Source: Povalibacter uvarum (GTDB lineage Bacteria; Pseudomonadota; Gammaproteobacteria; Steroidobacterales; Steroidobacteraceae). Taken from it: a DNA stretch of 64,000 nt. Below the pieces are notes generated by a model, which was given only the letters and a program-made list of their open reading frames with translations, made no database searches and was not told the origin of the DNA. The translations under genes were made by a program, and so were the position numbers. Shown here piece by piece: positions 18,332-53,411 of the stretch. Each line of letters opens with the position of its first letter. Position 1 is the first letter of the stretch. The stretch covers positions 434,001-498,000 of the forward strand of contig NZ_JACHHZ010000006.1 of NCBI RefSeq assembly GCF_014202975.1, given 5' to 3'.

Positions 18332-19747
<1,416 letters not shown>

Positions 19748-19767
19748 GATCATCTCCGTTCAAAGTG

Positions 19768-22852: not shown

Positions 22853-23863
22853 ATGACAGAACCGATCAGCACGTCTGACGTCACTCCGGACGGACATAAT
22901 CCGGAGTCGCCAGAGTCCACGGACGCGGTATCGATACTCATCGTCGAAGACGAAGGCATCGTCGCGCAGGACCTGCAGGAGACCATTGTCAGGCTCGGCT
23001 ACCGGGTAGCAGGCGTCGCGGGCGAGGGCGTCCAGGCGGTCTACATGGCCGACGAGCTGCGGCCGCAACTGGTCATCATGGATGTCGGCCTGCGAGGCGA
23101 CATCGACGGCATTCAGGCGGCCCAGATGATCCAGGAGCGCGCCCGCATTCCAGTGATCTTCCTGACTGGGCATCGCGACCTCGATACGCTCGACCGGGCG
23201 GTACGCACGGGGCCGCTGGGATATCTCGTCAAACCCTTCCAGGAAGTCGAGCTGCGCTGCTCGATCGAAGTGGCGATCCACAAGCACCGGGCGGAGATCG
23301 CGACGCGTGAGCGCGAAGAAGCGCTGCGCCGGAACGCCGATCTGCTCGTCAGCCTGTCGCTGGTCGACGAGCTCACGCAACTGCGCAATCGTCGCGGATT
23401 CTTCGAGCTGGCGGAACAGGCGCTGAAAGTCGCGCGCCGCGAGCGGCACATGCTCGGCCTCTTCTTCGTCGACCTGAATGGCCTGAAGCAGATCAACGAT
23501 CATCTCGGCCATCTCGTGGGCGACCAGGCTCTGCGCGACACCGCCGATGCGTTGCGCAGCACGTTCCGTGAATCGGACATCGTCGCCAGGCTGGGCGGGG
23601 ATGAGTTCGTCGCACTCGCCCATGTCCAGAACGATACGAGCACGCTGCGCGAGCGACTGCGTGAACAACTGGCGGTGCTGAACGCTGGCGCGGGACGGCC
23701 CTACAAGCTCGACGTCAGCATCGGCACGACCCTGGTGAATGCCGCCTCCAACGAAACCATCGAAGCGTTGATCGCGCTGGCGGACGCCGACATGTACGAG
23801 GAAAAGCGCGCTTCGAGCGGCATCCGTTACGTAGGCGACTTCACCAGCACGAGCGGCGTATAG
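22853..23863 (+). CDS. Response regulator with GGDEF diguanylate cyclase domain
   Basis: The 336-residue protein makes the second messenger c-di-GMP under control of a phosphorelay. A receiver domain (residues about 23-145) has the acidic pair EDE, phospho-acceptor Asp in VIMDVGL, Thr in FLTGH and Lys in LVKPF. The GGDEF domain (about 165-325) has an intact GGDEF motif and an inhibitory RESD (RxxD) site five residues before it. It is therefore likely active and product-inhibited. No partner histidine kinase is adjacent. It stands alone after the long palindrome-rich region. Confidence 0.95.
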   Translation: MTEPISTSDVTPDGHNPESPESTDAVSILIVEDEGIVAQDLQETIVRLGYRVAGVAGEGVQAVYMADELRPQLVIMDVGLRGDIDGIQAAQMIQERARIPVIFLTGHRDLDTLDRAVRTGPLGYLVKPFQEVELRCSIEVAIHKHRAEIATREREEALRRNADLLVSLSLVDELTQLRNRRGFFELAEQALKVARRERHMLGLFFVDLNGLKQINDHLGHLVGDQALRDTADALRSTFRESDIVARLGGDEFVALAHVQNDTSTLRERLREQLAVLNAGAGRPYKLDVSIGTTLVNAASNETIEALIALADADMYEEKRASSGIRYVGDFTSTSGV

Positions 23864-40585: not shown

Positions 40586-40915
40586 TCAGCCGAGAGCCTG
40601 AATGGTGCGCGTGTAAGCGGAGTGAACGAGCGCTTCGATGGTCTTCTCGCTGCGCGGCGCCAGCAGCAACTTCAACAGCACCTCGTCGGCGGGCCGCGCC
40701 GGATCATCGATCAGGATCTGCTCGATGAACCGGGTCACGCGATGCTGGATCTCGTTCACGAAGCGCAGCTTGTTCGCATCGATGTCCTGATTGCTGCCCG
40801 GGCTGTAGAAGTTGCGGGCGTCGAGCGTCAGTTCATACATGAAGCGCGCGAGAAACCGCGCTTTGTCGATCGACGACAGATCGACGAAATTCCTGACCTC
40901 GGAGTCGATATTCAT
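40586..40915 (-). CDS. Small conserved hypothetical protein
   Basis: The 109-residue soluble protein begins MNIDSEVRNFVDLSSIDKAR and is predicted all helical (FLARFMYELTLDARNFYSPG, NKLRFVNEIQHRVTRFIEQIL). I have no functional assignment. The start at 40915 excludes a proline-rich stretch that results from read-through of the heptamer region. It is convergent with the antiporter gene, three bases apart, and lies downstream of the envelope operon terminator. Confidence 0.7.
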   Translation of the reverse strand: MNIDSEVRNFVDLSSIDKARFLARFMYELTLDARNFYSPGSNQDIDANKLRFVNEIQHRVTRFIEQILIDDPARPADEVLLKLLLAPRSEKTIEALVHSAYTRTIQALG

Positions 40916-41001
40916 GGAACGGATGATTGCGGGGGCGGCCTGGGGAAAGCAAGGCGGGACGAGGAACGGCGGCGGCAACGGGATGGGCGGTAGACGGGCT
41001 A

Positions 41002-41031
41002 CTGGCTGCTGGCTGCTGGTTGCTGGCCAGA
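41002..41031. repeat. Heptamer array (GGCTGCT type), left arm
   Basis: Units run GGCTGCT GGCTGCT GGTTGCT GGCCAGA. The consensus is the same as the array inside the gene at 44053. An inverted copy at 41115 faces it across the terminator hairpin. Confidence 0.85.
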
Positions 41032-41085
41032 GCATGAGTCGGAGCTCAGAAGGACAGGCGAATGGATTCTGTCGAATCCGGAAAC

Positions 41086-41112
41086 GAAGAAGGGGCCAGC
41101 GGCCCCTTCTTC
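41086..41112 (-). terminator. Terminator hairpin of the envelope operon
   Basis: GAAGAAGGGGCC and GGCCCCTTCTTC form a perfect 12-bp stem with a three-base AGC loop. It lies 40 bases after the stop of the last operon gene. The pyrimidine-rich arm gives the minus-strand transcript a partial U-rich end. Confidence 0.8.
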
Positions 41113-41114
41113 CA

Positions 41115-41143
41115 TTCTGGCCAGCAGCCAGTAGCCAGCTGCC
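41115..41143. repeat. Heptamer array (GCCAGCA type), right arm
   Basis: TTCTG is followed by GCCAGCA GCCAGTA GCCAGCT GCC. It is inverted relative to 41002-41031 and ends nine bases from the stop of the TonB-like gene. Confidence 0.8.
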
Positions 41144-41151
41144 TTCCTGGC

Positions 41152-42075
41152 CTACGCCGGGAAGAAATCAATCGGCTTCGTCGTCGTAATCGTCTCGACG
41201 TCGCGCGCCTCGAACCGGAACGACTTCACTCGGGCGACCAGCTTGCGCTCGAGGTCCGGATCGTTCAGTTCGCTCGAGACCACACGGCACTGCGTGATTT
41301 CACCCGTCGACGCAATCGTCAGCTCGAGCACGACTTTGCCCTTGAGGTCGGGTTTGTCGCGCAGCGCGCGGCTGTAGAGAGCGTAGATCGCGCCCTTGTT
41401 GCGGTCGAATATCAGCTCGATCTCTTCACGGCTCCGGGCGGCCTTCGTGCTGCCGGCGCCGCGCTTCACGCCGTCGTCGGCCTGCGCTGCCAGCGTCGAA
41501 GACGTCACCTGCGTCGTGGTGTGGCCGGTCAGCGAGCCTGCGCCGCTGCCATAGCCGCGACTCAGTGCCGCGGTGTTGATGCCACCGCTGTTCGAACCGA
41601 CCTTGGACGTGATGAGCGACCGTTCGGAGCTGGTCGTCTCGCCGACCTTGCCGGACAGGTTCTTCGTCATCGCGGCCTTGTCGAGCACCGAGTTGTCGCG
41701 CAGGTCGGCGAGCTGATCCTGCAGCTTGAGCAAGCCGGCGTTCTGCGCCTTCTGGCGCGCATCGGGTTTCGGGGGTTGCGGCTTCGGCTCGATCTTCTCG
41801 ATCGGCTTCGGCACTTCCTTCGGCTCGACCTTGGGCGGCGGAGGCGGTGGCGGCGGAATCTTCTTTTCGATGACCAGCTTCACCACGCGATCCGGCAGAT
41901 CCGGCGCTTTCGCCAGCTTCTTGTCCGGCGTCGGCATGAACGTGATGATCAGCGCGAGCAACCCGAACAGGATGAACAGGTTGCGGACGATGTTGCGGAA
42001 GCGCTTCTCGACCGCCTCGGTCGGCGACCAGGGCAGTTCGTAGAGACGGTAAAACGGGGCGATGGCCGTGCTCAT
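41152..42075 (-). CDS. TonB-like energy transducer with AgmX/PglI-type C-terminus
   Basis: The 307-residue protein has a cytoplasmic N-terminus, one membrane helix (LFILFGLLALIITFMP, about 33-48), a proline-rich periplasmic spacer (KKIPPPPPPPPKVEPKEVP) and a low-complexity Ser/Thr/Gly region. A C-terminal domain (about 215-307) reads GAIYALYSRALRDKPDLKGK, VVLELTIASTGEITQCRVVS. This C-terminal type is found in Myxococcus gliding-related AgmX/PglI-like proteins and differs from classical TonB. It would transmit motor energy from the ExbB/ExbD proteins to outer-membrane or periplasmic TPR partners. It is the last gene of the operon. Confidence 0.88.
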   Translation of the reverse strand: MSTAIAPFYRLYELPWSPTEAVEKRFRNIVRNLFILFGLLALIITFMPTPDKKLAKAPDLPDRVVKLVIEKKIPPPPPPPPKVEPKEVPKPIEKIEPKPQPPKPDARQKAQNAGLLKLQDQLADLRDNSVLDKAAMTKNLSGKVGETTSSERSLITSKVGSNSGGINTAALSRGYGSGAGSLTGHTTTQVTSSTLAAQADDGVKRGAGSTKAARSREEIELIFDRNKGAIYALYSRALRDKPDLKGKVVLELTIASTGEITQCRVVSSELNDPDLERKLVARVKSFRFEARDVETITTTKPIDFFPA

Positions 42076-42088
42076 GTGGTGCGCCCCA

Positions 42089-42643
42089 TCAATTGCGATT
42101 CGCCGCGCTCAGCGACGCGGTGCGATTGGAGTTGAGGCTCGTATTGAGCTCACGCTCCACCACTGCCAGCGAAACCTTGCCGTAGTCGGCATCGGTGCAC
42201 GTCGCCATGACCTTGCGCAGCACTGCGTAAGGCGTGTGGCGATCGCCGAGAATGGTGACCGTACGATCGGCAATGTCCTGTTTCGCGGCATCCGCGAGCA
42301 CTGAATCGCCGACCGACTGCAGCGCCTGCTTCAGCGGCGCGATCACAGTGTCCTGCGCCGCGACGATGTCGGAGACTTTCGCCACCGCACGTCCGTCGAC
42401 CAGCAGGTCTTCCTTCGTGATCATCACGACGACGCTCGGCTCCGGCTTCTTATCGGAGATCGATTCGGGGATCGAGATGTTCTTCGAATTCGGCAGCACA
42501 TCGACGTCCGACGTGTGCACGAGCAGGAAGACCACCAGGATCATCAGCATGTCGATGAACGGCACCAGGGTCATGTGACCGGCCGCTTCGGCACCGCCGC
42601 CCTTACTGCGCTTGCGATGGCGCTTGATGCGATAAGGAGTCAT
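42089..42643 (-). CDS. ExbD/TolR-family motor protein 2
   Basis: The 184-residue protein has a basic N-terminus (RIKRHRKRSKGGG) and one membrane helix, MTLVPFIDMLMILVVFLLV, with the conserved proton-path Asp. A periplasmic domain of about 135 residues follows, longer than usual and Asp/Ala-rich. Its ATG overlaps the stop of the other ExbD gene by four bases. Two different ExbD proteins next to one ExbB are typical of TonB-type systems with TPR partners. Confidence 0.92.
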   Translation of the reverse strand: MTPYRIKRHRKRSKGGGAEAAGHMTLVPFIDMLMILVVFLLVHTSDVDVLPNSKNISIPESISDKKPEPSVVVMITKEDLLVDGRAVAKVSDIVAAQDTVIAPLKQALQSVGDSVLADAAKQDIADRTVTILGDRHTPYAVLRKVMATCTDADYGKVSLAVVERELNTSLNSNRTASLSAANRN

Positions 42644-43146
42644 GTTGGCGCATCTCCAACGGAAACATCAGGAAAGAGTTCCGCGATATCCCACTGCGAA
42701 CCCGGCACCTGGAACACGCGAACCGTATCCATCACCTGCACGAGCGTGTCGTACTGGATGTCCTGCTCGAGCAGAATCGTTGCGTTGAGCGTGTCCGGGT
42801 ACTTCGATTTCACGAGCTGCAGGTATTCCGACAGGCTCTTCAGATCGTACTTCTCGCCGGCGAGCGGCACAGTGCGCAGCACGCCAGTGCCGCGATCAGC
42901 CACTTCGATACCGGCCTTGCGCACGATCACTTCGAGATTCAGTCCCTTCGGCAGATCGGGGACGGCGCTGTCCGCGCCCGGCAGGTTCAGCTCCAGGACA
43001 TTCGTCTTGGTGAACACCGCCGTGAAAATCAGGAAGAACACCAGGATGATCATCATGTCGATCATCGGCACGACATTGATGTCATGTCGCCCACGGTAGC
43101 GCGCGTGATTACGCCGCACGCGCCCCGCGACTTTCGACTGCGCCAT
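42640..43146 (-). CDS. ExbD/TolR-family motor protein 1
   Basis: The 168-residue protein has the membrane helix INVVPMIDMMIILVFFLIF with the conserved Asp, preceded by a basic cytoplasmic end (RRNHARYRGRHD). The periplasmic domain contains VPLAGEKYDLKSLSEYLQ and ATILLEQDIQYDTLVQVMD, the usual ExbD fold. It lies 33 bases after the ExbB gene and overlaps the second ExbD gene. It should form the proton channel with ExbB. Confidence 0.94.
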   Translation of the reverse strand: MAQSKVAGRVRRNHARYRGRHDINVVPMIDMMIILVFFLIFTAVFTKTNVLELNLPGADSAVPDLPKGLNLEVIVRKAGIEVADRGTGVLRTVPLAGEKYDLKSLSEYLQLVKSKYPDTLNATILLEQDIQYDTLVQVMDTVRVFQVPGSQWDIAELFPDVSVGDAPT

Positions 43147-43179
43147 GGCCGTCTCCGTAGCGTCTTGAGCGTTCGATTC

Positions 43180-43872
43180 TTAACCGTGCGCAGAAGCGCG
43201 GCCGCGGGGAGCCGGCGCGGGCGCATCTTCGTCGGTATCCTGGCGACGCTCGACGACGGAGTTCAGGAACTTGACGTTGGCGATTTCGAGGCTGTCGATC
43301 AGCTTCGTGGTCTTGGCTTCGAGGAACATGTGGGCGAGCAGCAGCGTGATCGCGACGAACAGACCCGACGCGGTGTTGTTCATGGCGACCGAAATGCTGG
43401 CGGCGAGGAGGTTCGCCTTCTCCGCCGGGTTCGCCGTCGCGATCGAGGCGAACGCCGCGATCAGGCCGATGACCGTACCGAGCAGACCCGTGAGCATGCC
43501 GATGTTGGCGAGCGCCGAAAGATAGTGCGTGCGCTTCTCGAGCTTCGGAATGATTTCGAGCAGGCTTTCGTCCATCGCCTTCTCGACGTCATCGCGGCGA
43601 CGAGCGCTCGCGAGACGGGCAATGCCGTAGTTGAGTGCGGTTGCGAGCGCAGCGCTCGACTTCTGGGTGACGGTGATCACCTGACGGAAGTTGCCCTGGC
43701 TGATCAGCGGGGCCACCTGCGCCCAGACGCGCCGGTTCACCGTCGTCTCCTTGGTCAGGTACACGAAGCGCTCGATCGCGATCGCCACGCCTACCACGAA
43801 GATCGCGGCGAGCATGTACAGGAAGGGTCCGCCTTCCTTGAAGAAGGCCACCACGTAATCCAGGAAAGTCAT
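43180..43872 (-). CDS. ExbB/TolQ/MotA-family proton channel protein
   Basis: The 230-residue inner-membrane protein has three membrane helices: FLYMLAAIFVVGVAIAIERF (about 18-37), a pair around IGMLTGLLGTVIGLIAAFAS (about 125-145), and VAMNNTASGLFVAITLLLAH (about 165-185). The GLLGTVxG and NxTASGL segments are family hallmarks. It forms a pentamer around ExbD and uses the proton gradient. A 180-base gap with no gene separates it from the upstream operon member, so an internal promoter is possible there. Confidence 0.95.
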   Translation of the reverse strand: MTFLDYVVAFFKEGGPFLYMLAAIFVVGVAIAIERFVYLTKETTVNRRVWAQVAPLISQGNFRQVITVTQKSSAALATALNYGIARLASARRRDDVEKAMDESLLEIIPKLEKRTHYLSALANIGMLTGLLGTVIGLIAAFASIATANPAEKANLLAASISVAMNNTASGLFVAITLLLAHMFLEAKTTKLIDSLEIANVKFLNSVVERRQDTDEDAPAPAPRGRASAHG

Positions 43873-44052
43873 CGCTAGGTACTCCTCTGCCGTCCCGTGC
43901 CGCGCTGCCAGAAGCGCGTGTGAAAATGAAATCTGTTTCGTGCGTCAACCGGCGGGTGCCACGCGCTCTGCGTTGCGCACGTATCGCTCCCGGCCAGTCA
44001 TGCGAGCGTTCTGTAGTGCTTTATCGCCTTAGGTAAAACTGTACGCTGCGAC

Positions 44053-44502
44053 CTACTTCTCAGGACCTGCTTGCGGCGCCTGAGAAGCGGGATTCGCCTT
44101 GTCACCGCCAGACGACACTGCACCGTAGTACGTCACTTCCCGACGAAAAACGTCACGGTCGACCGGCGTCAATGCTTCATCGAGGAGCGTGTTGAAAGGC
44201 TGCGCGGGCAGATCGCCGATATCGGCTTTCTTCCACGGAACGATGTAGAGAACCTTGGGCAGCTCGCGATTGCCCGTCACGACGGTGGTGTTGAGCTCGA
44301 GACGGTCGCCCCGGCGGCCCGAAGCAGGCTGCTGGCCGCTGGCTGCTGGCTTCTGGCCAGAACTCGATGCGCGAGGCGCGGCGCTCTCTGAAAGCGGCTT
44401 CTCCTCTTTCGGCGCATCGGTGTTCGGTGCCGGCGGCTCGGCCGCAATCGCAGCCGTCGCGACCAGGGACAACAGGAAAAAGACCTTGTGAGCTTTCATC
44501 AT
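44053..44502 (-). CDS. Exported protein of the envelope operon, unknown function
   Basis: The 149-residue protein has a signal peptide (KAHKVFFLLSLVATAAIAAE) and a low-complexity linker. The conserved-looking part is LNTTVVTGNRELPKVLYIVP, followed by WKKADIGDLPAQP and a C-terminal VDRDVFRREVTYYG. The linker SGQKPAASGQQPASG is encoded by a heptamer array, so its length probably varies among strains. The ATG overlaps the stop of the upstream TPR lipoprotein gene. I do not recognise a family; its place in the operon suggests a periplasmic subunit of the machine. Confidence 0.8.
   Translation of the reverse strand: MMKAHKVFFLLSLVATAAIAAEPPAPNTDAPKEEKPLSESAAPRASSSGQKPAASGQQPASGRRGDRLELNTTVVTGNRELPKVLYIVPWKKADIGDLPAQPFNTLLDEALTPVDRDVFRREVTYYGAVSSGGDKANPASQAPQAGPEK
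44322..44360. repeat. Heptamer array inside a coding sequence
   Basis: On the minus strand the units are GCCAGAA GCCAGCA GCCAGCG GCCAGCA GCCTGCT. They lie in frame in the gene at 44053-44502 and encode a Ser/Gln/Pro/Ala linker. The consensus is that of the intergenic arrays at 41002 and 41115. Confidence 0.85.
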
Positions 44503-45260
44503 TCGGCACTCGCACTGCGCTGCTGGCTGCCCAGCCGCGTCTTCAGTTCGGTGACCCATGCAGCCACCTTTGCGTCCGGCGATGCGGACAACGAGAGGTA
44601 GCGCTCGTAGGACTCCAGCGCACGCTGCGGCTGCTGGAGATACAGATCGCACAGCACACCCAGATTGAGGTGCGCGAGTGCGTAGTTCGGATCGATCTGC
44701 AGCGCCCGCTGGTACGCCTCGTCGGCCTCCTTGAAGCGGCCCATGCGGCGATTCACGATGCCCAGCTGGTTGTACGCAGCGGCACTGTTGCTGTTGCGCG
44801 CGATTGCAGAACTCAGCGTCTTCTCGGCATCTTCGAGCTTGCCTGCCTTCGTCTGCAGGATCGCGATATTCAACAGCGGCCCCGCGTAGGCCGGATAGTT
44901 ATCGCCGAGTGTGCGAAAGGTCTGTTCAGCGGCCGCCGCGTTGCCTGCCATCGCAGCGACCGCACTGTCGAACTGCTGCTGTGCTTCGGGCGGAACCGGA
45001 ACCTCCACAGGCGCGGCAGCTCCAGTGGCCGCATCAGCAACAGCCGTCTTCGATTGGGCAGCCGCGCTCGACGACTTCGCAGTCGGCGCCGCAGCCGCCT
45101 CTGTCGCCTGCGGAACAGCGTCCGGCTTCCTCGGCTCGGATCCACAAGCCGCGAGCCCGAGCAGCGCGCTCGCAACGAGAACACCATTCAGCAGAGCTGC
45201 GCCACTCTGGCTCACAGCTCGCTGCTCACAGCTCACAGCTTCAGCGAATCGCCTGAACAT
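44499..45260 (-). CDS. TPR-containing lipoprotein of the envelope operon
   Basis: The protein is about 253 residues. After an N-terminal stretch comes a lipoprotein signal, VLVASALLGLAACGSEP, with a lipobox (LAAC). An Ala-rich linker follows, then three to four TPR units (AAYNQLGIVNRRMGRFKEAD, ALAHLNLGVLCDLYLQQPQR) from about residue 130 to 235. It would sit in the membrane facing the periplasm and bind partner proteins. The start at 45260 overlaps the upstream gene by 20 bases; the residues AVSCEQRAVS are encoded by a heptamer array, so the true start may lie further in. Confidence 0.85.
   Translation of the reverse strand: MFRRFAEAVSCEQRAVSQSGAALLNGVLVASALLGLAACGSEPRKPDAVPQATEAAAAPTAKSSSAAAQSKTAVADAATGAAAPVEVPVPPEAQQQFDSAVAAMAGNAAAAEQTFRTLGDNYPAYAGPLLNIAILQTKAGKLEDAEKTLSSAIARNSNSAAAYNQLGIVNRRMGRFKEADEAYQRALQIDPNYALAHLNLGVLCDLYLQQPQRALESYERYLSLSASPDAKVAAWVTELKTRLGSQQRSASAE
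45210..45243. repeat. Heptamer array (GCTCACA type) at a gene junction
   Basis: Units are GCTCACA GCTCGCT GCTCACA GCTCACA GCTTCAG. The stop codon of the 940-residue TPR gene and the N-terminal codons of the lipoprotein gene both lie in the array. Confidence 0.85.
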
Positions 45261-48063
45261 ACTCTTCACCAATCTCAGCCTTCGCGTAGCGTGCCGGCTT
45301 GAGTTTCGCGAGCACATCGAAGCTGCGCTGCACCCACTCGTCGTAGACACCGTCGCCCGTGCGGGCGGCATTCGTTTCATGCAGCTCGATCGCCTTCTCT
45401 TCGAACGGGAAAGCCTGTTCTTCGAGCAGCACGTCGTACTGTTCTCGCGATTCTTCGTCGAGACCTTTCGGCCGCTCCGACGTCATCAGGTCGGCCGCGA
45501 GCTGACGATAGAGCTCAGCCATGCCGTAGTTCGACGCGGTCGTGACTTCCGCCACGCCGTAGTCGAGTGCCTGTCCATACGTCGCCAGCACCTTCTCCAT
45601 TGCGCCACGCTTCGCCTTGAGAGACTTGTCGAGCGGCACCACGAGCTTGATCGAGGTAAACATGGCGACCTGGGGCTCAGCCGTCTCGAGCGTCGCCTTC
45701 GCCGCGAGGTACTTGCTGCGATCCGTGCGTGCCGCACCCGCGGACTTATCGGCCACGATGATCTCGTTGATCCACTGCGACCGTACCCGCACGTCGTTCT
45801 GCGCCTTGGCCATATCGGCCAGACGCTGACGTGCGTTCTGCGCCGGATCGAGCGGCGATGGGAATTGCTTGACATAGTTGGCATAAACACGCGCGGCATT
45901 AGCCTGCGAGCCCGCCTTCTCGTACAGGGTTGCCGACTGCCACAGCGCTTCGCGACGAACGTCCGCCGGCTCTTCGGTGCGTCCCGCGATGCGCTCGAAC
46001 TCGGCAGCCGATTCGCCGGCGCGGCCCGTTTCGAGATACGCGACTGCGAGCGAGCGAGTCACATCGGGATTGAGCTGATGCCCCGGATACTTCCGGCGGA
46101 AGCTCTCGAGCACCTGCGAGGCGCGATCCCACTGCTTGTTGTTCAGCAGGATGCTCGCCGCGTCGTATTCGGCATTCGCGCTGACCTTTGCGTTCGGCGC
46201 GAGAACCGCTACACGCAGGAAGTCGTCGACCGCACCAGTCGCATCGCCCGCGGTCTGCTTGGCTTCGGCCTGCTTGTAGACCGACGCTGCGATACGCTCC
46301 TCGATCGCAGGACGATCCGGATCATTCGCGGGCAGGAAGCCCTGCACACGGATGTAGGCAAGCTCCGATTCCGCGAACCGGCCACGATCGAACAACGAAT
46401 GCGCGAGCAGCGTCGACGCCGTGCGCTGGAACTGGGTGCTGACCGGAGGCTTGCGCTCGAGGATCTGCTGCGACACTTCGATCACGCGATCGAAATCGTT
46501 CAGCGCGAACAGCTCCTGGTCCGCCTTCGTCAGCACGCGGGCTGATTCGGGATGCTCAGGGAAGCTCGTCGCGAACATGACCTGGCTTTCGATGCCCTGG
46601 CGATGCCACAGAGCCTTCGATTCACCGGTGATCGTCGCTTCGTGCTTCGTGTAAGCGACCAGCGCCGCATAACCCGCGGCAGCAGACTTCGCGTGCGCCG
46701 GGTAGTCGTACGCCGTGCGCTCGTATTCCTTCGCCGCTTCCGCGAAGCGCCCGGATTCGAACAGCACTTCACCCAGCAGGTAGCGCGTGGCGGGTGCCTC
46801 TGCATCCTGCGGGAACGAATCGAGCATCGCGCGATACCAGCGCGCCGCAACTGAGTAGTCCTCGGGCTTCTTCGATTTCTGCGCCTGCGCGTGGTAGTAC
46901 TCGGCCAGATCTTTCTGGTTGGCTTTCAGCTGCGCGGCGACTTCCGGTGCGTCCTGCACAGTGCGGTTCGCCCAGAACGCGGAGCCGAACGCGTAGCGCT
47001 CCACGAAAGCCTGCTTGCCTTCCAGCACCAGCGAGGCGAAGCCGCCCTTCTGGTACGCCTCGATCGTGCGCATCTGCAACGACGGCGCAAAGCGATCGTC
47101 CGGGCGACGTTTCGCGAACGCTTCGAACGCGAGCGCCGCGTCCTGATAACGTTCCTTCTCGATGTAAAGATTGCCGAGACTCTCGTAGAGCAGGTGTGCG
47201 TAGACGGGATCACCGCGCTGCTTCAGGAACGCATCGAGGGACGCGGGTCCGTCGATGTCGTAGAACGTGATCGCCACGGCGCGGAATGCATCGTCCGTCA
47301 ACTCGCGCTCGGGCCGCTGGAGCGAATCGCGCTCGCGGAGCTTGCCGTCGCGGGTGAGCACGCGGTCGATGACTTTCAGGAACGAACCAACGCTCTCCTC
47401 GCCCCGGCCCTGCTTGAACAGCGACCAGCCATGCTTGTAGAGGCCCTGGTCGTAGTAGCCGCTCTCGGGTCCCGCGGCGACGACAGCTGCGTACGCGCGT
47501 TCGGAATCCTTGTAGCGAGCCGCGCTGAACAGAATTTCGCCGCGACGGAACTGGGCTTCGGTGGCCCACTTGCTGTTCGGATAGTTCGTGACCATCTTGT
47601 CGAGAACGGCCAGCGCTTTCTCCGGTTGCGCCTCCGACTCGTATGCACGCGACAGCTGGTACATCACGGCATCGTTGCGTTCGTACTTCGGATACGCAGC
47701 GAGCAGCGATTCGTACAACTTGATCGCTTCCTTGTTCTCGAGGCCATTGAAGTCGTCGCCACCGGCGGCACGCGCCGCTTCGTCGACTTCGACCTGCAGG
47801 TCACCGAGACGACGCATCGCTTCCGCGCGCATCTTCTCGTTATCGGACTGCAGCTCGAGGAAGCGCTTGTACTGCTCGATCGCCTGCTGTGGCTGGACGT
47901 TCGTCGGCGGATCCTTGTCGATCTGGATCTGACGCGTCTCGAGATCCTTGATCGTGCCGGTCGGCTTCGGCTTCTTTTCCGCCGAGTAGACCGGCGAAGC
48001 ACCGAGCGCCAGTGCAACGGCTCCGGCGACGAGTGCGGATGCCAGGGTATTGCGCGCCTTCAT
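45241..48063 (-). CDS. Large periplasmic TPR protein, operon scaffold
   Basis: The 940-residue protein has a signal peptide (RNTLASALVAGAVALALGAS) and then TPR-like helical repeats over nearly its full length, for example QAIEQYKRFLELQSDNEKMR, AIKLYESLLAAYPKYERNDA and RFAEAAKEYERTAYDYPAHA. Such proteins bind partners and often connect inner- and outer-membrane parts of envelope machines. It overlaps the upstream TPR gene by four bases. It recalls the large TPR proteins next to AglRQS/Tol-type motors in Myxococcus, but assignment to that system is inference. Confidence 0.88.
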   Translation of the reverse strand: MKARNTLASALVAGAVALALGASPVYSAEKKPKPTGTIKDLETRQIQIDKDPPTNVQPQQAIEQYKRFLELQSDNEKMRAEAMRRLGDLQVEVDEAARAAGGDDFNGLENKEAIKLYESLLAAYPKYERNDAVMYQLSRAYESEAQPEKALAVLDKMVTNYPNSKWATEAQFRRGEILFSAARYKDSERAYAAVVAAGPESGYYDQGLYKHGWSLFKQGRGEESVGSFLKVIDRVLTRDGKLRERDSLQRPERELTDDAFRAVAITFYDIDGPASLDAFLKQRGDPVYAHLLYESLGNLYIEKERYQDAALAFEAFAKRRPDDRFAPSLQMRTIEAYQKGGFASLVLEGKQAFVERYAFGSAFWANRTVQDAPEVAAQLKANQKDLAEYYHAQAQKSKKPEDYSVAARWYRAMLDSFPQDAEAPATRYLLGEVLFESGRFAEAAKEYERTAYDYPAHAKSAAAGYAALVAYTKHEATITGESKALWHRQGIESQVMFATSFPEHPESARVLTKADQELFALNDFDRVIEVSQQILERKPPVSTQFQRTASTLLAHSLFDRGRFAESELAYIRVQGFLPANDPDRPAIEERIAASVYKQAEAKQTAGDATGAVDDFLRVAVLAPNAKVSANAEYDAASILLNNKQWDRASQVLESFRRKYPGHQLNPDVTRSLAVAYLETGRAGESAAEFERIAGRTEEPADVRREALWQSATLYEKAGSQANAARVYANYVKQFPSPLDPAQNARQRLADMAKAQNDVRVRSQWINEIIVADKSAGAARTDRSKYLAAKATLETAEPQVAMFTSIKLVVPLDKSLKAKRGAMEKVLATYGQALDYGVAEVTTASNYGMAELYRQLAADLMTSERPKGLDEESREQYDVLLEEQAFPFEEKAIELHETNAARTGDGVYDEWVQRSFDVLAKLKPARYAKAEIGEEYVQAIR

Positions 48064-50015
48064 TGCGCACCTCCCTGGCTACCCGACGACTCCGCGGGCA
48101 CGTTCGTGCTGCTCGTGCCGGAAGCGGCGCGATCGTAGATCGACGCCAACGCGAAGCGCGCCTGCAGCGAGTACGCCGCCAGCCGCTCCTTCTGCGATTC
48201 GAGCTCGCGCACCGCTACCGATGCGAGGTATTGATTCTGGGCATCAGCGGTCGCGCCAAGACGGGCCATGAGGCCATCGATGCGAGGACGCAGTGCCTCG
48301 ACGCGCTTGGCGAACGCTTCAGTCCGCGCGGGGTACTCTTCACGAGCCCGCTCGATCAGCACCCAGCGACGGCGTGCTTCCTTGTACGCGACGTCGAGCT
48401 CACGCAGTTCCTTGCGAGCCTTCCACAGGCGCGCCTTATGGCTCGACGAGAAATCCCACGTGAGACGGCCGCGCAGCAGACGCACTTTCTCGCGCATCTC
48501 CTGAACCATCGGATCGGAAGGATCGGCCTGCGCCAGCACCTTCTCGATTCGCTGCACTTTGTCCCACTGTTCGAGCTCGCGACTGCTCGCGAGACCGGCT
48601 GCATCACCTTCGCGCTCGATCGCCGCCAGGCGGGATTCGAGCTCGGTACGCCGTGAATCGAGCGCATCGAGATCGACGGTGTCGAGCGTCTGCTGCAACT
48701 GCGGCAGCCGCTGCGCGAATGCTTCGCGCCGGTTGTCGACCATGTCGTCGAACGCCGTGATGCTGAGCTGCCATGTCGCGAGATTGCGCTGCATGAGCCG
48801 CAGGTCGCGATAGTTCTTCAGGCCTTCCTGGAACTCGTTCGTTGCCAGCAGGTGGTAGAGGTAGCGCGTTTCGGGCGCGTCCGGCAGTTCCTGCAGCTGC
48901 CAGAACCAGCCGGCCTGATCAGCCTTGTCGTTCTCGGCAATCGCGTCCAGCAGGCGACCGCTGCGAATCGCGGCGATCGATTGATCGATGCGCGCAGCTT
49001 CGTCGCCGAACGCGTTCACCGCGAGCGTGTACTGTTCGACGGCCTGGCGATTGGCTTCGAGCTGTGCGTAGGCATATGGGATCGCGAGATAGGATTCCTG
49101 CACAGCCGCATCGAGCATGTTGCGGTCACGCAGCTCCATCCAGGGAACCAGCGCCTTCGTGAACTGCTTCTCCGCCGAGTCGGCCCAGCCGACACCGAGC
49201 AGCGCCTTGTTCGATTGCGGACCTTCGAGGCGGACCCGCTGCAGCACGGTTTTCGCGTCGGCCGGACGATTCGCCTTCAGCCATGCAAAACCGAGTGCGA
49301 GGTTCGCCTTGTCGCGCAGCGCCGCGAGTTCGTCGGTCGGCGCCGAGATCTGCCCCACTTCATCGAGCAGCTTGGCCGCATCGTCGAGCCGATCTTTCCG
49401 GACCAGCGCAACGCCGATGTTGAAGCGGGCATACGCGGACCATGCGTCGGAACGATCACCCACCGGCTGCCAGCGCTCGAGAGCGGCGATGGCTTCGTCG
49501 TAGCGATCGAGGTACATCAGCACCTGTGCGTGCAACAGGTGACGCTCAGGCTCGAGCTCACCGGGCAGCGCGCCATGAATCGAAGCAAGCGCGTCCGCGG
49601 CCTGCTCGAGATAGTCGCGCTGGTACCAGACCTTCGCCAGGTAGAACCACGCGCGGTTGCGGACGTCGAGCGGCACATTGTCGTTCAGCAAGGCCTTGAA
49701 GATGCGGCCGGCTTCTTCGTGCTGGCCCAGCGACAGGTACAAACCGCCTTTGAGCAGTTCGGCCTCGACCGTGTGATTGCCGATGCGATCGAAATCCTGC
49801 GAAGCGCCCAGCCGCGTGAGCGACTGCACGTAGTCGCCCTGGTAGAAATAGAACAGCACGTCGCCCCAGTGCAGATCCTTCACGACTTGTGGCGTACCGA
49901 CGAGGGGCTTCTCCTCCGTCTGCTTCTCGCCCGCGATCGCGGGCGAAGCCGCAACGGCGGTCAGCGCCGCGGCGACGAGGACGGATGCGAGACGATGGCG
50001 CAGGCAATTCGGCAT
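48060..50015 (-). CDS. Periplasmic TPR/coiled-coil protein
   Basis: The 651-residue protein has a signal peptide (RHRLASVLVAAALTAVAASP) and TPR repeats in the N-terminal half (DVLFYFYQGDYVQSLTRLGA, EAGRIFKALLNDNVPLDVRN, DEAIAALERWQPVGDRSDAW). The second half is a long charged helical region with probable coiled coil (about 430-640). The start at 50015 gives the signal peptide; the longer frame to 50120 does not. It is coupled to the 940-residue TPR gene by an ATGA overlap, so the two are probably made in equal amounts. Confidence 0.88.
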   Translation of the reverse strand: MPNCLRHRLASVLVAAALTAVAASPAIAGEKQTEEKPLVGTPQVVKDLHWGDVLFYFYQGDYVQSLTRLGASQDFDRIGNHTVEAELLKGGLYLSLGQHEEAGRIFKALLNDNVPLDVRNRAWFYLAKVWYQRDYLEQAADALASIHGALPGELEPERHLLHAQVLMYLDRYDEAIAALERWQPVGDRSDAWSAYARFNIGVALVRKDRLDDAAKLLDEVGQISAPTDELAALRDKANLALGFAWLKANRPADAKTVLQRVRLEGPQSNKALLGVGWADSAEKQFTKALVPWMELRDRNMLDAAVQESYLAIPYAYAQLEANRQAVEQYTLAVNAFGDEAARIDQSIAAIRSGRLLDAIAENDKADQAGWFWQLQELPDAPETRYLYHLLATNEFQEGLKNYRDLRLMQRNLATWQLSITAFDDMVDNRREAFAQRLPQLQQTLDTVDLDALDSRRTELESRLAAIEREGDAAGLASSRELEQWDKVQRIEKVLAQADPSDPMVQEMREKVRLLRGRLTWDFSSSHKARLWKARKELRELDVAYKEARRRWVLIERAREEYPARTEAFAKRVEALRPRIDGLMARLGATADAQNQYLASVAVRELESQKERLAAYSLQARFALASIYDRAASGTSSTNVPAESSGSQGGAQ

Positions 50016-50067
50016 CAGCACACCGGTGACTTGGGGGCCGTGGGCTTTGGAGCCAGGGGCCACTGCG

Positions 50068-50682
50068 TCATTCCCATTCCTTGATGACGAACTCGGGCTG
50101 CGCCTTCGAAGCCCGGTCACTGATCTTCAGCTCGACGTACTTCGCGCCGACACCCTTGTTCAGCTTGATCGTCGCCCCGCGACGATAGTCGCGCACATGC
50201 GGGCCCTGCCCGGTGAACAGCGCAATGAGCTCGTGATCACCGGACTTGAGGTTGCCGACGAACACGCGATGCACGCCGCCCTTCAGCAGGGCCTGCGCTT
50301 CACGCTCGGTGTAGAGGTAGTTCGCGACTTCCTTGTTGTCGAGCTTCAGCGTCACCGAGTCGACCGCGAAGTACTCGCCGACGTCCATCGACACGAACAC
50401 GGCGACCTGCGTGTTCGCGGGGAACAGCAGTTCTTCTTCGAGCACGAAGAGCTCGCGATTGAGATCCAGCACTTCCTTCTTCAGGGACTGCACTTCCTGA
50501 TCGAGGCTCTTGAAGTCGCCGCCCGCGGCCGGATCGGCCGCGGCAACAGCTGGCGCCGTGGCCTCCTGCGCCGTCAGCGGAGTCGCGAGCACGAAGAATG
50601 TCAGCAGCGACAGGAAGGCGTGACGAAACATGGTGCGTACCCGGTTCATGCGGTCGGCGAAAATGGAATGAATTGCGTTCAT
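50068..50682 (-). CDS. Exported coiled-coil protein of the envelope operon
   Basis: The 204-residue protein has a signal peptide (HAFLSLLTFFVLATPLTAQE) and a coiled-coil stretch (FKSLDQEVQSLKKEVLDLNR, ELFVLEEELL). A beta-rich C-terminal domain follows: FVSMDVGEYFAVDSVTLKLD, GGVHRVFVGNLKSGDHELIA. The C-terminal part resembles small Ig-like or PEGA-like folds. Three in-frame ATGs (50682, 50649, 50631) could start it. It is the second gene of the operon and is likely periplasmic. Confidence 0.8.
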   Translation of the reverse strand: MNAIHSIFADRMNRVRTMFRHAFLSLLTFFVLATPLTAQEATAPAVAAADPAAGGDFKSLDQEVQSLKKEVLDLNRELFVLEEELLFPANTQVAVFVSMDVGEYFAVDSVTLKLDNKEVANYLYTEREAQALLKGGVHRVFVGNLKSGDHELIALFTGQGPHVRDYRRGATIKLNKGVGAKYVELKISDRASKAQPEFVIKEWE

Positions 50683-50698
50683 GCGTTGGGGCGCCGGC

Positions 50699-51256
50699 TC
50701 ACTCGTCGTTGAGGAGCTTGCGCAGCTGTTCGGTATAGCGCTTCTCGTAGCCGGGCTTGAAGCCTTCGGAGACGTAGCGCACGACGCCTTCGCGATCGAT
50801 CAGCACGGTGACCGGCATCGATCCGACTTCGTAGGCGCGGCTGACTTCCTTGCGCTCGTCGAAAAGCACCGGATAAGTGACCTTCAGCGTTCGCGCCATC
50901 TCGGTCGCGCGCTCGGACGTGTCGTCGATATTGATGCTGAGCAGCGTGAGGCCCGCGAGCTTGTACTTGTTGTAGATCTCATCGAGCAACGGCATCTCCT
51001 GCCGGCACGGTCCGCACCAGGTCGCCCAGAAATTGATGATGATCACGTCGCCGAGGTGCTCGGACAGCCGCAGGTTGGCATCGCCCAGCGAGCGCAGCGC
51101 GAAATCCGGTGCAGGCTGACCCACGAGCCCTTCGGCATGGGCACCAACCGGCGCCGACAGAATTGCCGCAACGCAGACAGCGCGCAGGACGCGCTCCACG
51201 AGCGTGCATCGCAGCGAGCGCCGCGGAACATCACGAATCGAAGTCTGATGCAGCAT
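50699..51256 (-). CDS. TlpA/ResA-like thioredoxin-family protein
   Basis: The protein is about 185 residues from ATG 51256, or 203 from a GTG at 51310. A hydrophobic signal (RVLRAVCVAAILSAPVGAHA) precedes a redoxin domain with the CxxC motif in INFWATWCGPCRQEMPLLDE, LLSINIDDTS and the cis-Pro segment VGSMPVTVLIDREG. It would be a periplasmic disulfide reductase, possibly keeping an operon partner reduced. It is the first gene after the c-di-GMP riboswitch. The start is uncertain because no strong ribosome site is seen. Confidence 0.85.
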   Translation of the reverse strand: MLHQTSIRDVPRRSLRCTLVERVLRAVCVAAILSAPVGAHAEGLVGQPAPDFALRSLGDANLRLSEHLGDVIIINFWATWCGPCRQEMPLLDEIYNKYKLAGLTLLSINIDDTSERATEMARTLKVTYPVLFDERKEVSRAYEVGSMPVTVLIDREGVVRYVSEGFKPGYEKRYTEQLRKLLNDE

Positions 51257-51383
51257 CGAACTGAGGTACGCCGATCGCAGTGAATGGTTGCAGCCGAATA
51301 CGCTGACCACGGAGGGCGGAACGCCGCAGACGCAGAGGAAGGACAGTCGGCCCGGTAAACCCCGATGAACGGGCTCGCCGAAA

Positions 51384-51468
51384 CGCTGGCAACCCCGCTG
51401 TCCTAGGAAGTCCCCGTAGACCGGTGGCTTTGCGTCCTCACCTTTCGGTGAGTTTGCCTTTGCGATGA
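51384..51468 (-). promoter_or_regulatory. c-di-GMP-I (GEMM) riboswitch leading the envelope operon
   Basis: On the minus strand the leader reads GCAAAGGCAAACTCACCGAA and AGGTGAGGACGCAAAGCC, then ACCGGTCT, a second hairpin and GACAGCGGGGTTGCCAGCG. The GGCAAAC...GACGCAAAGCC core, a CACC-GAAA-GGTG hairpin with GNRA tetraloop, and the closing GGGGTTGCC match the class I cyclic-di-GMP aptamer at every conserved block. It ends about 75-130 bases before the first gene, leaving room for an expression platform. GAGCCCG..CGGGGTTTACCGGGCC pairings downstream could form one. Confidence 0.95.
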
Positions 51469-51592
51469 GGCGGTTTCGCCGCCATCAAACGCGCGAGTTA
51501 GGGTGCCAAACGGCGTGCAAATATGTCAACGAACGAAATGTGATCCCGGCGGCGCAAATCTGCGACGACATGTGACTCCGCGCACACTTCAG

Positions 51593-51620
51593 CTCGTTGT
51601 CTGTGTCTACAGACAACGAG
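51593..51620. terminator. Perfect 12-bp hairpin downstream of the small secreted gene
   Basis: CTCGTTGTCTGT and ACAGACAACGAG pair exactly around a GTCT loop. It abuts the next hairpin without a gap. Both lie between the stop at 51669 and the riboswitch. No T run follows. Confidence 0.6.
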
Positions 51621-51660
51621 AGGCGTGCAGCGCGACCGGGGTAATCGGCGCTGCACGCCT
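51621..51660 (-). terminator. 13-bp hairpin after the small secreted gene
   Basis: AGGCGTGCAGCGC and GCGCTGCACGCCT pair perfectly around a 14-base loop, eight bases beyond the stop of the gene at 51669. With the adjoining hairpin it probably insulates the small gene from the riboswitch-controlled operon. Confidence 0.65.
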
Positions 51661-51668
51661 TCGGCGGT

Positions 51669-51875
51669 TCAGAGAGGAACGCGCGGTGCGATGTAGTCCG
51701 TGCTGGTCGCCGTGGCCTTCCACATCGCGATCATCTCCGGCGTTGCCTCACCCTGCATCGCGGGTGCTGCCTCGACGACCGCCTGCGCGCTCGCCTGGCC
51801 GTAGAGCATGGAACCGGCCACTGCCGTGCCGAGCGTGAGGAGGAGTGCCGCACCGATAGCGATTCGAGTCTTCAT
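51669..51875 (-). CDS. Small secreted hypothetical protein
   Basis: The 68-residue protein starts MKTRIAIGAALLLTLGTAVA, a good signal peptide with likely cleavage after ASA. The mature part is short (QAVVEAAPAMQGEATPEMIA, then MWKATATSTDYIAPRVPL). GGAGAAG lies upstream of the chosen ATG; another ATG at 51893 would add six residues. It follows the repeat protein gene by 53 bases on the same strand and may be co-transcribed. No family is recognised. Confidence 0.7.
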   Translation of the reverse strand: MKTRIAIGAALLLTLGTAVAGSMLYGQASAQAVVEAAPAMQGEATPEMIAMWKATATSTDYIAPRVPL

Positions 51876-51928: not shown

Positions 51929-52396
51929 TCAGACGAGCTGCGGACGCTTCACGTCCACGGCATCGGTGAGCTGCGGACGCTTCACATCAACCGCGTCAGC
52001 AAACTGGGGACGCTTCACGTCGACTGCATCAGCAAGCTGCGGGCGCTTCACATCGACTGCATCGGCAAACTGCGGACGCTTCACGTCGACTGCATCGGCA
52101 AGCTGCGGACGCTTCACATCGACGGCATCGGCGAGTTGCGGACGCTTCACATCGACTGCATCGGCAAGCTGCGGGCGCTTGATGTCGACGACATCGGCGA
52201 ACTGGGGACGCTTCACATCAACGGCATCAGCAAGCTGCGGGCGCTTGATGTCGACGACGTCCGTGAGCTGCGGACGCTTCACGTCGACTGCATCAGCGAA
52301 CTGAGGACGCTTCACATCGACCACGCCGTCTGCCGTGGCCTGAGCCGAAGCGGCGAGAGCAGCAAGAACGAAGGAAGCGACGATTGCATTGCGCAT
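51929..52396 (-). CDS. Secreted protein of tandem 11-residue repeats
   Basis: The 155-residue protein has a signal peptide (RNAIVASFVLAALAASAQAT) and then eleven full copies plus one partial copy of VDVKRPQLADA, so twelve KRPQ motifs. Variation is limited to V/I at position 3, L/F at 8, A/T at 9 and A/V at 11. At DNA level the repeat is 33 bp with mostly silent differences. The Pro and Lys-Arg in every unit argue against a plain helix. No known family is recognised. The ribosome site is weak. A consensus CRP-type site lies 102 bases upstream. Confidence 0.82.
   Translation of the reverse strand: MRNAIVASFVLAALAASAQATADGVVDVKRPQFADAVDVKRPQLTDVVDIKRPQLADAVDVKRPQFADVVDIKRPQLADAVDVKRPQLADAVDVKRPQLADAVDVKRPQFADAVDVKRPQLADAVDVKRPQFADAVDVKRPQLTDAVDVKRPQLV
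51932..52320. repeat. 33-bp coding tandem repeat, about 12 units
   Basis: Uninterrupted 33-bp units underlie the 11-residue repeats of the secreted protein. There are no spacers, which excludes a CRISPR array. High similarity between units predicts copy-number change by slippage or recombination. Confidence 0.92.
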
Positions 52397-52817
52397 GACT
52401 GAAAACCCCGTGGAAAAGTGAGAGAGAGTACAAATGGAATATGTAAATAAACCGTCCGACGTCAGTTGTCGGTTCAACGGCATAAGCGACGTGCCTGTGT
52501 GATCCCCATCACACGCGCTACTGGACATTAGGACAAATTGGCCAACAATCAGCGCATGGCGGATGAGTATGCGGGGGAAATCCCTTACAGAGGGCAAACG
52601 GCCGGGTGAGGGTTCGTCGTAGACGCATTGCGGGCACCAGCACGCAGTCGTCCGACGGCCAGCCATGCCAGAATCGCGTTCGGGAGCCCACATCGCCGGC
52701 CAATTCATTTAAATTCCGGGGTGGGTATCCGGACTTACCCGGATCTACGGGACAGCGGAGCTTTTTCTGAGCAATACGATCGCAGCGGCGATTCCCCAGA
52801 CCGACCGGCAAGAGGCG
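52397..52817. other. Divergent control region between repeat protein and sigma factor genes
   Basis: About 370-420 bases without a gene. It contains the CRP-type palindrome described separately and should hold promoters for both directions. In frame with the sigma factor a CTG at 52767 has GGAG six bases upstream and may be its true start. Confidence 0.5.
52498..52513. promoter_or_regulatory. CRP/Clp-type binding site
   Basis: TGTGATCCCCATCACA matches the CRP consensus core TGTGA-N6-TCACA exactly and extends as GTGTGAT..ATCACAC. It is 102 bases upstream of the repeat-protein start and about 255-305 bases upstream of the sigma factor start, so either gene could be the target. Confidence 0.65.
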
Positions 52818-53411
52818 GTGACCCGCCTTCTGTCTGCCTGGCAGTCCGGGGACGCGCTCGCCCTCGAGCGGCTGACGCCGCTCATTTATGAGGAGCTGCG
52901 CGATCGTGCCCGCCGCTACATGAAGAACGAGCGGGCCGGGCATACCCTCCAGGCCACCGCGGTCGTCCACGAAGCCTTCGTCAAGCTCGTGGAAATGAAC
53001 ATTTCCTGGCAGGACCGGGCTCACTTCTTTGCTGTCGCCGCCCGCCAGATGCGCCGGATCCTGGTCGACCACGCCAAGGCCCGCTATCGAAGCAAGCGCG
53101 GGGGCACGAATACGACGACCACCGGGATGATCGACGAGCTGCCGATGACCGAATCCATGGGAATGGGTCCGGTTACCTCCGGCGACATCGACGTGCTGGA
53201 GATCGATGAGGCCCTTCAGCGCCTGGCGACCCACAACCTGCGGCTGTCCGAGATCGTCGAACTGCACTACTTCGGCGGCCTGACTTACCAGGAGCTCGCC
53301 GAGACCCTGAAGGTCTCGGAAGCCACCATCGACCGCGACCTGCGCCTGGCCAAGGCCTGGATTCTGCGGCAGATCCGGCCGCAACGCCCCAGGGATCCCG
53401 AGGGCGTATGA
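52818..53411 (+). CDS. ECF sigma factor paired with a Ser/Thr kinase
   Basis: The protein is 197 residues from GTG 52818. It resembles the ECF43-like sigma factors (LLSAWQSGDALALERLTPLI, YEELRDRARRYMKNERAGHT, VVHEAFVKLVE), with region 4 as IVELHYFGGLTYQELAETLK and VSEATIDRDLRLAKAWI. No anti-sigma gene is present. Instead, its stop overlaps the ATG of a Ser/Thr kinase, matching sigma/kinase pairs such as EcfK-PknS of Xanthomonas, where phosphorylation activates the sigma factor. A CTG start at 52767 would add the N-terminus SNTIAAAIPQTDRQEA with a better ribosome site. Confidence 0.9.
   Translation: MTRLLSAWQSGDALALERLTPLIYEELRDRARRYMKNERAGHTLQATAVVHEAFVKLVEMNISWQDRAHFFAVAARQMRRILVDHAKARYRSKRGGTNTTTTGMIDELPMTESMGMGPVTSGDIDVLEIDEALQRLATHNLRLSEIVELHYFGGLTYQELAETLKVSEATIDRDLRLAKAWILRQIRPQRPRDPEGV

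Follow-up and report, generated by a model that had tools for sequence, protein, structure and literature searches.

A predicted class I c-di-GMP riboswitch in the leader of an Agl-Glt-like core complex operon of Povalibacter uvarum

According to the main text of Luciano et al. 2011 (PMC3169522), the gliding and sporulation machines of Myxococcus grew from a core complex that is found in many gammaproteobacteria and consists of gltC, gltD, gltE and gltG together with aglR, aglQ and aglS. The same text describes the gammaproteobacterial genes as clustered, accompanied by an additional gene and sometimes duplicated, with a function in these bacteria that was unknown as of 2011; the words riboswitch and c-di-GMP (cyclic di-GMP) are absent from it. 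The core complex was presented as a possible basal transport machinery by Wartel et al. 2013 (PMC3858216). On the RNA side, a passage of PMC9262584 describes a pilM riboswitch of Geobacter metallireducens that has the GEMM-I fold, binds cyclic GMP-AMP (c-GAMP) and acts as a transcriptional ON-switch. In this study, we analysed a stretch of 64,000 nucleotides (nt) from Povalibacter uvarum (hereafter the window; contig NZ_JACHHZ010000006.1, positions 434,001-498,000; coordinates below are window positions), where a class I c-di-GMP riboswitch aptamer precedes ten co-directional genes on the minus strand (51256-41152) that are predicted to encode an Agl-Glt-like core complex.

We consider it probable that the ten genes form one transcription unit and that the riboswitch in its leader determines how much of the core complex is made. 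In the proposed mechanism, c-di-GMP would bind the class I aptamer in the 5' leader, and the whole ten-gene operon would follow that leader as a single transcription unit. The regulated products would be a proton motor of the ExbB/ExbD type, a TonB-like transducer, periplasmic tetratricopeptide repeat (TPR) proteins and a TPR lipoprotein. Such a machine might move or pass on surface material in attached life, and type IV pili and secreted proteins with immunoglobulin-like (Ig) repeats might act alongside it under the same signal.

The aptamer is located at 51384-51467, on the same strand as the genes and 127 nt upstream of the first-gene ATG at 51256. It was found above the gathering cut-off with both Rfam covariance models of this class: RF01051 gave 80 bits (gathering 35), and RF03167 (c-di-GMP-I-GGC), the label assigned by cmscan, gave 69.9 bits (gathering 59, E 1.7e-14). 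Our own covariance model R1, trained on 27 copies with the window copy excluded, gave 86 bits and placed the 5' edge at 51468. The original prediction had called this a textbook class I aptamer directly before the first gene and had proposed a covariance search; the search bears the description out, and the proposed ends correspond to real boundaries, 51468 being the R1 edge and 41152 the end of the stop codon of the TonB-like gene. Rfam reported a single c-di-GMP aptamer in the window, and the sole other match above cut-off was an S-adenosylhomocysteine (SAH) riboswitch.

The Rfam label raises the alternative that the aptamer is a c-di-GMP-I-GGC variant that binds a different ligand, or that it has worn out. 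RF03167 is the best label by E value, and two copies within the genus are degraded, as described below. The core letter that separates the two consensus lines argues otherwise: RF03167 has GACGCG and RF01051 has GACGCA, and the window RNA reads GACGCA, so the G specific to RF03167 in GACGC[G/A]AA is replaced by A. The sequence core, the P2/P3 stems and the tetraloop are shared with class I (RF01051), and the core is much the same in the other genus rows of the leader alignment. Read from the alignments, the ligand-contact letters G20, A47 and C92 (Vc2 numbering) are the ordinary ones in the window aptamer. We take the distinguishing A in GACGCA to be A47 of the Vc2 numbering. The roles of letters 20, 47 and 92 follow part of PMC9049102, in which A47 stacks between both guanines of the ligand. 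We infer that the name GGC refers to these three letters and that the differing one defines RF03167. Since the A is present at the distinguishing letter and G20 and C92 are ordinary, the GGC label is probably wrong here and is best dropped, and the class I assignment stands. The variant ligand suggested by the label was rejected on this A, and we hold the alternative as a whole, with the worn-out aptamer included, to be very unlikely in view of the 80-bit score to RF01051. The Rfam clan competition put the c-di-GMP-I-GGC label on class I aptamers with A in 3/7 copies inspected (the window, L001 and L003), and this competition between RF03167 and RF01051 is a possible cause of mislabelled aptamers elsewhere.

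The first gene of the operon (50699-51256) encodes a TlpA/ResA-like thioredoxin-fold protein with a signal peptide (AhpC-TSA 6e-28, Redoxin). Its start is likely the ATG at 51256 from the comparison of genus leaders, and the longest open reading frame (ORF) begins at GTG 51310. It is followed by P2, a secreted coiled-coil and beta-sandwich protein without a Pfam or NCBIfam family (50068-50682), by two periplasmic TPR proteins, one of 651 amino acids (aa) from its ATG (48060-50015; Pfam; found in 44/60 genomes, own included) and one of 940 aa with YbgF/CpoB-like repeats (45241-48063; Pfam, NCBIfam), by a GltE-like TPR lipoprotein with lipobox LAAC (44499-45260) and by P6, a small secreted protein without a Pfam or NCBIfam family (44053-44502). 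The motor genes encode an AglR-like proton-channel protein of the MotA/TolQ/ExbB family (43180-43872; Pfam 5.6e-24) and two ExbD/TolR-like proteins (42640-43146, Pfam 1.6e-18; 42089-42643, Pfam 3.9e-15). The last gene (41152-42075) encodes a GltG-like TonB-like protein with an AgmX/PglI C-terminal domain (NF033768, 65.9 bits, cut-off 40), whose TonB_C match of 24.8 compares with a cut-off of 24.6. Signal peptides and the lipobox were judged by eye. In gene order, the intergenic gaps are 16, 52, -4, -20, -4, 180, 33, -4 and 13 nt, so the view that the genes overlap or are closely spaced holds at every junction but one, where 180 nt separate the P6 gene from the ExbB-like gene.

Of 274 genomes drawn from the class, 58 have P2, the own genome among them. 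Its predicted structure combines a long helix with a beta-sandwich (predicted local distance difference test, pLDDT, 79.5; predicted template modelling score, pTM, 0.62). A Foldseek search with this model returned nothing below E 0.001, and no convincing sequence relative was found in the PDB. VIA-align Z values up to 9.3, to the PepT2 extracellular domain and transthyretins, reflect a common sandwich arrangement, and a known fold for P2 was rejected on these grounds. In the TlpA-like proteins of two relatives (L053, L115), the CxxC cysteines are missing by eye (WAGPS and WAGDS instead of WCGPC), so that the protein may have a non-redox role in these two.

The Agl-Glt core complex is matched by the motor set, by the AgmX/PglI-type transducer, by the TPR lipoprotein as a candidate GltE and by the clustering of the genes, and on these features the ten-gene operon is predicted to encode this known kind of machine. 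At the mapped relatives' loci, the genes form a single cluster in the same order wherever they were found, with not all ten found at every locus. Scores with the GltE and full-length GltG models are far below the cut-offs: the TPR lipoprotein reached 43.6 bits with GltE (cut-off 225), its top NCBIfam match, and the TonB-like protein 43.2 of the 650 needed for GltG. The complex could instead be an ordinary device for envelope upkeep or uptake of the Tol-Pal or TonB type, for which a c-di-GMP link would say little about surfaces. All PDB matches of the ExbB-like protein are TolQ structures (4/4), and the 940-aa TPR protein passed the YbgF repeat model (120.3 vs cut-off 90.1). This explanation is unlikely in our judgement: the operon proteins are far below the cut-offs of the TolQ (52 of 221), TolR (37.7 of 127.3), exbB2 (27.7 of 135), exbB (21 of 206) and ExbD (31 of 216) models, no TolB, Pal or receptor was found among the ten proteins, and the AgmX/PglI domain is above its cut-off.

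To compare the Agl-Glt-like operon of the window with its relatives, R1 was run over 52 sources and 80 further loci; a P2 profile had found at least 490 relatives, of which these 80 were the best. After merging 18 duplicates and omitting two loci without a P2 match (L054, L089), 112 loci were obtained. We call type A the loci of the window operon kind and type B those of a paralogous machine without TlpA. Loci with less than 1.5 kilobases (kb) upstream were counted only if an aptamer was present and were otherwise classed as not assessable (8), which gives a small upward bias to the fractions. In type A, the aptamer stands directly upstream of the TlpA gene in 31/98 assessable loci (5 not assessable), and in type B it was found upstream in 4/6 assessable loci (3 not assessable). 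Within the genus, it lies directly before the first gene in all 13 operons found; 14 genus genomes were searched, own included, and one had no match to the TPR protein. Given the number of aptamers in, and the size of, each of the 13 genus genomes with the operon (own included), chance would place an aptamer no more than 400 nt upstream of it in 0.003 genomes, vs 13/13 observed. By these comparisons, the pairing of aptamer and machine is kept throughout one genus and recurs in its order.

We also mapped aptamer presence onto a TPR-protein tree of 101 rows, a quick tree built without a mixture model that carried a long-branch warning and from which three rows labelled 'none' were dropped for short alignments. 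The label 'type A with aptamer' requires 7 changes on this tree vs 26.7 in shuffled labels, and 0/500 shuffles were as low; the number is 8 when both types are counted and 12 if far aptamers count. The small number of label changes compared with shuffles indicates that the aptamer tracks descent and was gained or lost several times; the tree does not separate these two cases. In another 4/98 assessable type-A loci, the aptamer was found only some 5 kb upstream, and one such far locus (L107) is doubtful with 20.3 bits and E 0.08. Aptamers about 5 kb upstream of TlpA were seen in genomes G045 (L267, 12620-19615), G058 and G059. The stretch between aptamer and TlpA in G045 encodes an HZS_alpha/cytochrome-like protein and two further proteins, with OMP_b-brl just below cut-off, and a DUF3570 protein is encoded immediately downstream of TlpA.

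Several observations weigh against riboswitch control of the whole machine. The first concern the relatives. The aptamer is absent in 63/98 assessable type-A loci, the 13 genus operons include two with degraded copies (27.3 and 46.6 bits with R1), and none of 60 wider-class loci outside the order had an aptamer upstream with the same model. These 60 came from 70 loci found outside the order after the ten weakest were omitted, and a few have less than 2 kb upstream; Rfam run on 20 of the 60 reported nothing. A class I aptamer occurs somewhere in 49/274 genomes of the class draw, own included. A universal pairing of aptamer and machine across the class is ruled out by the 0/60 wider-class loci, and since 63/98 type-A relatives and 60/60 wider-class loci are without it, the machine does not need the aptamer. 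At nine family-level loci without the aptamer, no other Rfam element was found above cut-off. Checked in relatives, as the original prediction had proposed, the riboswitch is present before this operon throughout the genus and in part of type A, and absent in most type-A loci and in the 60 wider-class loci.

The second group of opposing observations concerns the leader between aptamer and first start codon (51257-51383), which would hold an expression platform. No intrinsic (U-rich) terminator was found in it, and neither a terminator nor a ribosome-site platform is clear, unlike in known class I layouts. The whole leader folds no better than shuffled sequences (z -0.5). A segment of the leader could pair with the aptamer 3' end (AGGACAG with CTGTCCT), and an aptamer-competing structure was tested in 30 type-A leaders, all 31 except that of L044, which is degraded. 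The signal was weak, with a combined Z of -2.4 and 6/30 leaders under -1.5; for the window leader, 16/200 shuffles were equally good. The nine other leaders of the own genome gave no signal jointly (combined Z 0.2), with a strong result for one among them, L009 (0/200 shuffles equally good). An anti-aptamer hairpin as expression platform is suggestive only on these folding tests, and since the leader has no U-rich terminator, translational or Rho-dependent control is equally possible. A different hairpin, GATGGCGG...CCGCCTCATC at 51486-51464 (minus strand), lies immediately upstream of the aptamer and overlaps its 5' edge; it belongs to the minimum-energy fold and could compete with P1. No unannotated short gene is apparent between aptamer and TlpA in the 127-nt leader.

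Upstream of the aptamer, the -35-like TTGACA of a presumed promoter (TTGACATATTTGC...GCACCCTA) is located at 51524-51529 on the minus strand, as seen in the sequence and the genus alignment. This block, about 60 nt upstream of the aptamer, is found in 7/7 rows that reach so far in the 11-row genus leader alignment, and the block that follows it contributes letters to the invariant or near-invariant columns. Against this promoter, a simple sigma-70 scan reported no site in the region, the proposed TTGACA promoter included.

The last opposing observation, and the main doubt about the word 'whole', is the 180-nt gap between the P6 and ExbB-like genes, which could hold a second promoter. The riboswitch would then act mainly on the TlpA, P2 and TPR genes, and the motor genes would have their own promoter. 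The gap contains the block TAAGGCGATAAAGC (44018-44031, minus strand), a possible internal promoter or RNA element that was found in the window and in 5/6 genus gaps compared (absent in L046) and that by eye lies inside a short hairpin in some relatives. This block may serve as a promoter or a processing site, or may have no function. In relatives the gap is typically shorter: at 100 loci (duplicates and type B taken in) the median is 67.5 nt, the genes overlap at two, and values go down to -4. No sigma-70-like site was found in the gap by the scan that also missed the proposed main promoter, and no terminator-like site of the minus strand was found in between. A separate motor promoter is therefore a minority possibility in our view, with only a small chance of being right.

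The end of the unit is consistent with one transcript. A scan found no terminator-like site of the minus strand inside the operon and one right behind the last stop codon, a hairpin of 12 pairs at 41086-41112 (minus strand). It is the sole such minus-strand site in 40900-51700, where 7 sites were found on both strands vs 8.5 expected from shuffles. Control of the whole machine was predicted on the ground of the first-gene aptamer; this stands as far as the aptamer heads the operon and a terminator-like hairpin closes it, and is weakened by the 180-nt gap with its partly conserved element. Leader control of all ten genes is likely on the present comparison.

We identified ten class I aptamers in the own genome (RF01051), most of which head envelope- or surface-looking genes. 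A tandem pair and two singles stand before three proteins with He_PIG Ig domains, and one each stands before pilM, an M23 peptidase gene and the gene of a SPOR-domain protein. A paralogous operon without TlpA was found on contig C1 (L040 and L263, about 1420800-1440900). A class I aptamer precedes its first gene, and a second lies about 55 nt past the end of the TonB match. Behind the paralogous TonB gene lies the gene of a secreted protein of 1348 aa that carries SdrD_B and DUF11 domains. A homologue of this protein was found behind TonB in 8/8 type-B loci that reach far enough (own included; 9 total), with an aptamer between the two in 7/8. A giant protein is encoded next after the homologue in 5/5 type-B loci fetched further (own included); the own copy, the one examined for domains, has an OmpA domain and a barrel-like C-terminus. 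Across 40 type-A loci, neither protein turned up within the stretches covered. We propose tentatively, as a possibility short of an even chance, that the Agl-Glt-like core acts as a surface machine at the command of c-di-GMP and that it delivers giant surface proteins or moves them. If true, the paralogous machine and its cargo would stand under one signal through separate RNA switches.

Since most own-genome genes headed by such aptamers look like envelope or surface genes, the suggestion that the machine is part of surface behaviour is supported. Taken together, the comparison speaks for a surface-related machine under c-di-GMP control. The intact diguanylate cyclase noted at 22853 was recovered with Response_reg and GGDEF domains and an intact GGDEF motif. 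A special link between it and the operon was not upheld: the genome has 36 GGDEF matches, of which this is one, and it shows nothing specific to this operon.

As for the direction of control, we lean slightly to an ON-switch, with more machine at high c-di-GMP, and our one reason is that pilM and adhesin-like genes share the signal. An OFF-switch, by which c-di-GMP would lower the machine and reserve it for motile or exploring cells, as would fit a drive for gliding-like movement, is a real possibility that we rate somewhat below an even chance. Some class I switches are OFF, such as Cd1 of C. difficile (in a section of PMC9262584), and the window leader has no clear platform structure that would speak for either direction. 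The presence of pilM and three secreted Ig-repeat proteins behind such aptamers counts weakly against OFF, as each aptamer may switch in its own way.

Other features of the window lie beside this operon. An array of 33-base repeats (11.7 copies, 51936-52321) was found within a 259-aa ORF at 51929-52708 on the minus strand, which has no Pfam family and whose repeats read VDVKRPQLADA-like. Divergent from the riboswitch operon, the plus-strand region 52818-56245 encodes an extracytoplasmic function (ECF) sigma factor and then a Ser/Thr kinase with TPRs. The SAH riboswitch (19840-19764, minus strand) lies directly before an ORF at 18332-19753 that looks by eye like an adenosylhomocysteinase, an ordinary arrangement.

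The pairing of the core complex with a class I c-di-GMP riboswitch was not found among the matches listed in the literature searched, which mostly lay outside subscription journals. Aptamer and machine are both of known kinds. To our knowledge, the riboswitch before the core complex is the first concrete handle on core complex function in gammaproteobacteria. The pairing points to a part for the machine in surface life, and it makes an old question, the job of the core complex outside myxobacteria, directly testable.

In comparison with known systems, the window operon resembles the Agl-Glt core in its motor proteins (one ExbB-like and two ExbD-like), its TonB-like transducer with AgmX/PglI C-terminus, its TPR lipoprotein, its TPR proteins and its extra genes. 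It is also duplicated in its own genome, as the core complex sometimes is in gammaproteobacteria (main text of PMC3169522). The differences are that the window operon is headed by a c-di-GMP riboswitch, that its first gene is TlpA-like, and that two large TPR proteins stand in place of GltC/GltD, as putative counterparts only. Tol-Pal and TonB-ExbBD have motor protein families in common with the operon, whereas the operon differs from Tol-Pal in lacking TolB and Pal and staying below the TolQ/TolR cut-offs, and from TonB-ExbBD in lacking a receptor and staying below the ExbB/ExbD cut-offs. A G at position 20 of the aptamer is a mark of c-di-GMP binders. The own genome is like G. metallireducens in having an RNA of this fold, here a class I aptamer, before the type IV pilus gene pilM, and the aptamer of the window operon differs from the pilM riboswitch of that species by its G at position 20.

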